From the NCBI GenBank assembly GCA_037127255.1, contig JBANSL010000013.1, positions 6,698,188 through 6,762,187 on the forward strand: 64,000 nucleotides of DNA. Reading direction: 5' to 3'. The notes under the pieces are model-generated. The model had not been told where the DNA came from, made no database searches, and saw only the letters and a program-made list of their open reading frames with translations. Position 1 is the first letter of the stretch. The number at the start of each line of letters is the position of its first letter. A program made the translations under genes and the position numbers. Positions 12,256 through 59,967 of the stretch are shown here, piece after piece. Origin of the DNA: Persicaria tinctoria (Eukaryota; Streptophyta; Magnoliopsida; Caryophyllales; Polygonaceae).

Positions 12256-15200
12256 ATGTGGAACCCCAGCGGCCATAATCAGATGGCGCCGCCGCCGCCG
12301 GGCACCGATGGCTCCTCCATTCCTCCGCCACCGGCAGTCCAGCCTTCTTACACGGTGCTGCAGCCGCCGTCTGCGCAGCAGCAGTCTCAGCAGCAGCCGT
12401 CGCCTGCGGATGCGGTCGCGGCGTTGGATGAGAAGGCCAGGAAGTGGATGCAGCTCAATTCGAAGCGGTATGGAGATAAGCGGAAGTTCGGGTTCGTCGA
12501 AACTCAGAAGGAGGATATGCCGCCTGAGCATGTTAGGAAGATTATCAGGTCAGATTTCTTTGATTTGTAACTTTTAGGTGCTTGTGAAATCGTTGTGGAG
12601 CAAATCATGTGAGCTTAGATTTAGGTGATTAAAAGTTTCATGTGTCGTCCGTATGTTTGATGGCTCCATCAAAGATAGAAAGGTATGAGGAAGATGAAAC
12701 TGATTGATTCTTTATCTGTGGTTTAAGTGAGAAATTGGATGGAAATGTGATATTCAAGTTTGATGAATATTCAGTGTGTAGGTGCCTCCCCTCTAATTGT
12801 ATTATGTTTATCATGCATTTTCATTTTGGCACACCATTCAATTCAGAATTCAATTCAGAATTCAGATGTCTTTTTTGATTATTTGGAAGTTTTATTTTCC
12901 ATGCTTGATAAATGTATTATTATGTTTGCAGAGATCATGGAGATATGACGTCAAAAAAGTTCCGTCATGACAAACGTGTATACCTAGGGGCTCTTAAGTT
13001 TGTGCCTCATGCCGTGTATAAGCTTCTTGAGAACATGCCCATGCCTTGGGAGCAGGTATATTTGTTTTATTTTTCTGGATTCTGTTATTTATTCTTTTGC
13101 TACAAAGTTATATTTGTGCATCTTCACTGTTGTATTGTTGCACCTGCTCCATTGAATGAGGTATAACCATCTTTCTATATTTTGTTTCAGGTTCGTGATG
13201 TGAAAATCCTTTACCATATCACAGGGGCTATAACCTTTGTAAATGAAATACCATGGGTTGCTGAACCTATTTACCTAGCTCAGGTATTCTCGTTTATCCT
13301 TCTTTGAAGTGCTTCCTACTTTATCACTAGCAATTCCTCGTCCAATCAACCTATCCTTGCACTAGTAGTTATTATATTTTATTAAGCGTGTTAGCCTGTT
13401 AGGTATCTTTTCTGCCGCGTTTTTATAACAAAATTTGACATTACTAATCTGTTCTTATTGATGCTCTGTAGTGGGGTACAATGTGGATCATGATGAGAAG
13501 AGAGAAGAGGGACCGAAGGCATTTTAAAAGAATGCGATTTCCACCTTTTGATGATGAAGAACCTCCATTGGATTATGCTGACAATGTTTTAGATGTGGAT
13601 CCCTTGGAGCCAATTCAGCTAGAATTGGATGAGGAAGAAGATTCTGCTGTGTACACTTGGTTCTATGACCACAAGCCTCTTGTGAAAACAAAACTTATAA
13701 ATGGTCCAAGTTACAGGAGATGGCATCTCTCTTTGCCTATCATGGCAACCCTTCACCGGTTTGCAGGGCAATTGCTTTCTGATTTAGTTGACAGGAATTA
13801 CTTCTACCTCTTTGACATGGAGTCATTTTTCACAGCTAAAGCCTTAAACATGTGTATTCCTGGTATGTTCACTATGGTCTCTTTTGTTGCTCGTGTTTTG
13901 TCATCTTCAGATAAAACAACTTTGTGAATAGAATGTCAACTTTATTCCATTTCTAGATGTTACTAGCTTCTTTATGTTGTCAGTCTTTGGTGGCAGTAGG
14001 ATCTAGTACGTAATCTTTGGTGGCAGTAGGAACTAGTTTAGATCAAGCCTAAATTTCAGTTTCAACTAGTTTTTCCAACTGCTGACCAAATACAGTCATA
14101 ATGTTTTGCTATTTTCTTTCTGTCAGCTTGTTGCCGTTGGAAAATGTGTTTAACATGCTATGTACATTGTAACAAGTTACTTGCCTAAAAAATGGAGATT
14201 TGACTTTAAACTGTATTCATTTCTTTGAATAGGTGGTCCAAAATTTGAACCCTTGTACCGTGACATGGAGAAAGGTGATGAGGATTGGAATGAATTCAAC
14301 GACATTAATAAGCTTATCATCCGTTCACCTCTGCGGACCGAGTACAGAATCGCTTTTCCTCATCTTTATAACAACAGACCAAGGAAAGTGCGGCTGTGTG
14401 TTTATCACACGCCAATGATTATGTATATAAAAACTGAGGATCCTGATTTGCCTGCATTTTATTATGATCCCCTCATACATCCAATAACTCACAAGGAACG
14501 TCGTGAGAAGAAAGTTTCTGAAGAAGACGATGATGATGATTTTCAACTACCTGATGAGGTGGAGCCATTTCTGAGCGACACACAATTATACACAGACACA
14601 ACTGCTGCTGGAGTCTCACTGCTTTTTGCTCCCCGGCCTTTTAACATGAGATCTGGTCGAACACGACGTGCTGAAGACATACCTCTCGTCTCAGATTGGT
14701 TTAAGGAGCACTGGTAACTTTTTTTTTTTGGTTTCTTAATAAGATGCATCCTTTTAATCTTTATACTTGTTCATCTCTTTTCTACTTTCTAACCTGTGCA
14801 TATTATATTGCAGCCCTCCCTCTTATCCTGTCAAGGTTCGGGTGAGCTACCAGAAGTTGTTAAAATGTTTTGTGTTGAATGAACTTCATCACAGACCGCC
14901 TAAAGCTCAGAAAAAGAAGCAATTGTTTAAATCTTTGGCAGCTACTAAGTTTTTTCAGAGTACCGAGCTTGATTGGGTTGAAGCAGGTCTTCAGGTCTGT
15001 AGGCAAGGATACAACATGTTGAATCTTTTGATCCACAGGAAAAATCTGAACTACTTGCACCTTGATTATAATTTTAATCTGAAGCCAGTCAAGACCCTCA
15101 CTACCAAGGAGCGAAAGAAGTCAAGATTTGGCAATGCGTTTCATTTATGCCGTGAGATTCTTCGTTTGACCAAGCTTGTAGTTGATGCCAATGTCCAGTT

Positions 15201-59967: not shown

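Follow-up and report, generated by a model that had tools for sequence, protein, structure and literature searches.

Remnants of PRP8 between tandem receptor-like protein genes in Persicaria tinctoria: probable duplication of a unit beginning inside the neighbouring gene

Fragments of PRP8, an essential spliceosome gene, lie among the members of a tandem cluster of LRR receptor-like protein (RLP) genes in Persicaria tinctoria, raising the question of whether complete copies of PRP8 were once made along with the receptors and afterwards purged, or whether the copies were incomplete from the beginning. A first-pass annotation of this DNA had favoured the former, taking PRP8 and an RLP to form one tandem unit from which the surplus whole copies of PRP8 had been removed, perhaps by selection. 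We addressed this question in a window of 64,000 nucleotides, which has a G+C content of 40.4%; the features discussed are collected in Table 1.

The splice model of PRP8 at the left end of the array has 17 exons and encodes 2361 amino acids in one unbroken frame, with a GT start and an AG end in 16 of 16 introns. The domain set expected of PRP8 (PRO8NT, PROCN, RRM_4, U5 and U6 snRNA-binding, domain IV, PROCT and JAB) was recovered: a Pfam-type scan of the open-frame pieces matched seven PRP8 domain families, PROCT had no match in the pieces scanned, and the Rumex salicifolius PRP8, which is 97% identical over 100% of the length, is listed with all eight domains. The closest relatives among 120 proteins listed are this protein and those of Nepenthes and Drosera (96%). 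Downstream follow six RLP genes in tandem, all on the plus strand and 85.4-88.3% identical in pairwise comparison, the first of which starts ~0.8 kb beyond PRP8. One surviving PRP8 and about six tandem repeats of the unit had also been reported by the first-pass annotation, and the splice model and plus-strand copies bear this out; its further statement that the receptors were kept holds for RLP1, RLP4, RLP5 and RLP6, and fails for RLP2 and RLP3, whose matches to RLP1 shift frame. In the two copies scanned (RLP1 and RLP6), LRR_1, LRR_8 and LRRNT_2 domains were found, and the kinase family had no match in either 1004-aa frame in the domain scan. A hydrophobic stretch lies near the RLP C-terminus, as judged by eye. 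RLP2 carries a 260-base stretch (35466-35725) without counterpart in the other RLP copies.

Searching the rest of the window by blastn with the PRP8 locus (11601-22730, E<=1e-3) gave 26 matches outside the locus, all on the plus strand; 23 are PRP8 debris and three are RLP-proximal upstream sequence. A reversed-sequence control gave no match at the same threshold, and neither the stretch after RLP6 (to 64000) nor the stretch left of 11600 had a blastn match to the query. The same blocks were recovered by a copying-model alignment that allows jumps both ways, which scored 191, 483, 45, 754 and 93 in the five intervals between RLPs (some RLP upstream and chance rows included), as compared with 0 to 14.8 in reversed controls and 0.6 in the stretch after RLP6. 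PRP8 debris is therefore present in all five intervals between successive RLPs and always on the same strand, as had been noticed earlier from coordinates that prove right within about a dozen bases. Debris 2 contains a copia fragment and other inserts.

Table 1. Features of the array and its surroundings (positions are those of the window; source positions are those in the intact PRP8 locus)
Feature	Position	Strand	PRP8 source	Remarks
Copia-type LTR retrotransposon	2873-6967	-		LTR identity 95.4%; gag and reverse transcriptase domains; to the left of PRP8
RVT_3 (reverse-transcriptase-like) domain fragment	9768-10151			between the minus-strand copia element and PRP8
PRP8, intact	12256-22002	+		left end of array; splice model, domains, solved homologues, 97% identity to Rumex PRP8
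Source side of junction J	16977-17079	+		presumed start of the duplicated unit, in PRP8 exon 6
RLP1	22796-25735	+		open reading frame, LRR receptor-like protein; 3' flank type X
Debris 1	28436-28764	+	18206-18282, 18361-18440, 19763-19791, 19931-19979, 22210-22303	five collinear pieces: intron 9, exon 10, exon 12, intron 12, 3' flank
Copia-type LTR retrotransposon	29438-32722	+		after debris 1 and before RLP2; LTR identity 92%; gag, Pol_BBD and zinc-knuckle domains
RLP2	33174-36156	+		broken; 3' flank type J
Junction J after RLP2	36518-36560	+		~42 non-PRP8 bases, then PRP8 exon 6
Debris 2	36560-36662 and 37208-38327	+	16977-17079, 17684-17837, local copy of 19703-19779, 19689-19826, 20016-20059, 20827-20844, 21814-21848, 21876-22059, 22226-22317	exon 6 (16977) to 3' flank (22317)
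RLP3	38653-41531	+		broken (reading frame changes); 3' flank type X
Debris 3	43164-43224	+	19434-19494	one 61-base exon 11 piece; blastn E 4.9e-21
RLP4	44283-47147	+		open; 3' flank type J
Debris 4a	47568-48166	+	16983-17019, 17050-17082, 17131-17325, 17783-18099	exon 6 to intron 9; starts at altered junction J
Debris 4b	48308-48761	+	12723-12954, 13526-13712	intron 1 to exon 4, out of order
Debris 4c	48762-49092	+	19378-19800 in pieces	exons 11-12 with local duplication
RLP5	49674-52598	+		open; 3' flank type J
Debris 5	52998-53100	+	16977-17079	exon 6 piece at junction J
RLP upstream region	53820-54050	+		now ~3 kb from RLP6; blastn, copying-model alignment
RLP6	57085-59967	+		open; 3' flank type X; right end of array

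The way in which the RLPs pass into the debris is most readily seen in their 3' flanks, which in array order are of types X, J, X, J, J and X. The type X continuation is common to RLP1, RLP3 and RLP6, and the flanks of RLP3 and RLP6 are without a stretch that is present in RLP1 and in the other three. The flanks of RLP2 and RLP5 depart from type X after ...AATGG and have the next ~42 bases in common; the PRP8 sequence that follows starts in both at the identical position, 16977 in exon 6 (junction J). In the flank of RLP4, 30 of these ~42 bases recur (29 identical) and are followed by ~21 unlike bases, so that the join is altered with further local rearrangement, and PRP8 is recognised from ~16983 (30/36 bases). 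Junction J is thus exact to the base in two intervals only, a third having it in locally altered form; debris 1 and debris 3 stop short of 16977 on their left side. Within the window, the only good matches to the ~42-base stretch are the three J flanks themselves. Directly after 17079, debris 2 (36663-36778) and debris 5 (53101 onward) continue into a fragment of a copia RNase H region. On the simplest reading of the sequence, the three J joins would be one event inherited by copying.

The 5' part of PRP8 is largely missing from the array. Its promoter and exon 1 (11000-12722) had no match within the array by blastn (E<=1e-3), their single match being one of 125 bp in a repeat-rich region left of PRP8, and 13713-16976 (3264 bp, mostly conserved coding sequence) had no match in the array at the same threshold; 16977-22010 had 20 matches with 1959 aligned bp. 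Six rows dropped from the copying-model alignment match an A+T-rich, repeat-bearing region upstream of PRP8 (11513-11891), and so do five rows of the reversed control. Two of 19 distinct piece starts fall below 16977, where half of the gene sits (binomial P 0.0004, from a count that omits repeated J pieces, local copies, one weak row and 3'-flank pieces, and in which pieces are not fully independent). Both come from debris 4, from its out-of-order insert; in this block exons 6-9 are followed by intron 1 to exon 4 and then by exons 11-12, non-collinear with PRP8. Owing to this piece a second breakpoint (M) is needed, most simply read as exon 9/intron 9 joined to intron 1 through the copying of a unit that reached intron 1. 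Some event thus appears to have copied more of PRP8 than exon 6 onward (debris 4b, 12723-13712), and exon 1 and the promoter may have been lost from this longer copy later. A single J event and a single, later M event would be expected to leave the succession RLP4(J)-debris 4-RLP5(J)-debris 5-RLP6(X).

Comparison of 25 debris pieces with PRP8 gave 56/365 synonymous, 93/1401 nonsynonymous and 78/755 noncoding differences. The nonsynonymous/synonymous ratio is 0.43 (rough 95% interval of 0.31-0.60 from counts, uncorrected for multiple hits), and becomes 0.64 with noncoding (0.103) instead of synonymous divergence (0.153) as the yardstick. A copy dead since birth beside a protein-conserved PRP8 is expected to give ~0.5, and a copy functional for most of its life a value near 0. 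The divergence of the debris is close to neutral decay, with little time under constraint. Silent divergence by block (0.09-0.18) is below the dS of the four open RLPs (0.217-0.265, with dN/dS of 0.48-0.57); this may reflect detection bias, only well-kept pieces being recognised, or debris and RLPs of unequal age. Deletion by end joining is the usual route by which dead plant DNA shrinks. Among the piece-to-piece junctions of the debris, 16 of 20 abut without filler, with a mean microhomology of 1.88 bases, compared with 0.68 bases over 366 junctions of 60 simulated random-deletion debris treated with the same aligner (P 0.00025), and with 0.72 bases in a second control of random position pairs (P 0.00065). 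The microhomology fits end-joining deletions.

We consider it probable that a headless unit, with PRP8 from exon 6 onward, was duplicated in tandem together with an RLP and then decayed. A non-homologous tandem duplication would have joined an RLP 3' flank to PRP8 exon 6 (~16977), the repeated unit comprising PRP8 from exon 6, the intergenic region with the presumed RLP promoter, and the RLP together with its 3' flank. The PRP8 copy so formed would have lacked promoter, start codon and exons 1-5 and hence been dead at birth. With at least one further breakpoint (M, after RLP4), further rounds of exchange would have spread the unit to six RLPs and five debris intervals; the unconstrained PRP8 parts would have been broken down by short-microhomology deletions and by insertions. 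Four RLPs remained open and two decayed. We infer a single event behind the common breakpoint, as well as the sequence in which the rounds occurred, crossover as their mechanism and the position of the RLP promoter in the shared intergenic part. Counting against this account are the type X flank of RLP1 beside PRP8, unexpected after one simple duplication, and the discordance of the RLP tree with the flank types.

In that tree, RLP5 pairs with RLP6, RLP1 with RLP4 and RLP2 with RLP3 (local supports 0.95-0.99). Since its internal branches are short (0.009-0.011), its pairs disagree with the flank types and the nearest partner switches along the gene in 400-column windows of the alignment, the RLP copies likely underwent sequence exchange among themselves. 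A history of a single tandem duplication was not accepted, given the alternating flank types, discordant pairs and shifting partners.

The first-pass reading, namely that unequal crossing-over multiplied PRP8 and the RLP as a complete unit and that the supernumerary full-length copies of PRP8 were then destroyed, extra or truncated PRP8 perhaps being harmful, appears unlikely. The exon 6 breakpoint region common to three intervals and an array devoid of significant matches to the promoter, exon 1 and 13713-16976 argue against it, even though the 3' part of PRP8 and the RLP travel together, one copy reached further 5' (as debris 4b indicates) and the original left ends of debris 1 and debris 3 are lost. 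The ratio of 0.43, moreover, leaves little time under constraint, and two of the six RLPs decayed too. The proposal that the crossover unit took in the neighbouring PRP8 is upheld for part of the gene and, in view of the exon 6 breakpoint, not for the whole of it. Selective removal loses its basis at the three J intervals, as copies beginning in exon 6 would have been headless from the start; selection against surplus PRP8 is unneeded if the copies had no start from birth and microhomology deletion explains their decay. Another reading, in which template switching to PRP8 during break repair in the array supplied each piece as filler DNA and a block never existed, strikes us as very improbable. 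Short pieces (18-317 bases of source), the out-of-order piece of debris 4, local duplications at 37720 and 48762 and the microhomology at joins would suit it, but debris 1 is collinear over 4.1 kb of source and debris 2 over 5.3 kb, save one local repeat, an order not expected from filler. Both blocks, furthermore, end in the PRP8 3' flank followed by RLP upstream sequence, as at the intact locus.

An origin of the debris from another PRP8 locus or from retrocopies merits hardly any credence. As the debris includes sequence of introns 1, 8, 9, 11 and 12 and of the PRP8 3' flank (copying-model alignment), it was copied as DNA, and its position and strand repeat the PRP8-RLP order. A processed (retro-) pseudogene is rejected, introns not being absent from the debris; retrocopies were, with other PRP8 loci, an origin that the first-pass annotation had named as contrary to its own account. 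The residues at 1197 and 1200 of the local PRP8 differ from those of all five relatives compared, and the local state is found at both in debris 2 and debris 5, which amount to two sites and not four given that these blocks are related by ancestry; debris 1, 3 and 4 cover no window-specific residue. As far as two residues allow, descent of the debris from this PRP8 lineage seems supported. In Rumex salicifolius the RLP of highest identity, among 120 listed of 2602 matches, is V2J09_014934 (49% over 79% of the query), which lies with its listed paralogues 014907, 014978 and 017500 on a 71.1-Mb contig, and PRP8 (004632) is on another contig, of 65.4 Mb. This hints that linkage of PRP8 and RLPs may not be common to Rumex.

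Duplication of a headless PRP8 with its neighbouring receptor looks like ordinary cluster growth, and not the purging of spare working PRP8 copies, several of the scraps being apparently headless from birth. Sequences of a neighbouring gene at a receptor cluster are already known, from the tandem Hcr9 receptor-like proteins with lipoxygenase sequences at the tomato Cf-4/9 locus (PMC4766677). The present array resembles that locus in combining an LRR receptor-like protein cluster with sequences of an unrelated neighbour gene: fragments of the adjacent gene are repeated with the receptors on the same strand in 5/5 intervals, and units have a common breakpoint, exact in two intervals and altered in a third. 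In older papers on tomato, lipoxygenase fragments are reportedly also found between Hcr9 copies. What is new here is another plant order and an essential gene, PRP8, as the passenger, and unlike at Cf-4/9 the breakpoint can be read inside an exon. For the Co-2 cluster of common bean, resistance-gene duplications of the homologous and non-homologous kind are described (PMC6102362); the genes there are NBS-LRR and not RLP, and the passages of that paper on Co-2 mention no housekeeping neighbour. Tandem duplication with a breakpoint within a gene yields partial or chimeric copies (PMC5460883), the cases there being within-species polymorphisms, whereas the duplications here are older, go back to more than one round and have left decayed partial copies. 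A literature search for PRP8 together with RLP clusters found no report.

The case offers a readable duplication breakpoint and near-neutral markers within a receptor cluster, and since a constrained, intact PRP8 adjoins as reference, the scraps help to keep selection on the receptors apart from the decay of sequence that is dead. A further lesson is that a gene-by-gene reading, in which surplus PRP8 is purged, can yield to a simpler account when the breakpoint comes to light. That the essential, dose-sensitive PRP8 limits where the adjoining cluster can duplicate, such that only units beheading PRP8 survive, is a quite improbable extension; it would follow should the breakpoints of separate duplications in relatives likewise all fall within PRP8. 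Among the copies that can be recovered, none has the promoter or exon 1 of PRP8.

Other sequences in the window accompany the array. Directly before debris 1, and hiding its left end, lies ~2.3 kb with repeated AGCTCGACTCG-like motifs (26152-28435), which looks like a transposable element. This insert contains seven inverted-repeat pairs and the insert before RLP6 contains 25, none of which joins both ends of its insert among the five longest pairs listed for each. To the right of the array, the stretch 60710-64000 has two open frames, one of 224 and one of 159 codons, for which a Pfam scan (E<=1e-3) gave no match. Two non-PRP8 sequences each occur twice, at 36776-37007 and 43702-43967 (~79% identical; 0 and 0 inverted-repeat pairs around them) and at 37377-37570 and 49127-49344 (~79% identical), in differing positions relative to the PRP8 pieces, and would be parts either of an element or of genes that were captured. 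The conserved RLP upstream region is separated from the start of RLP6 by ~3 kb (54051-57063), by which the promoter of RLP6 may have been changed. Within this ~3-kb stretch is a hairpin-like inverted repeat (~56403-56641) that also matches 31878-32120 in both orientations.
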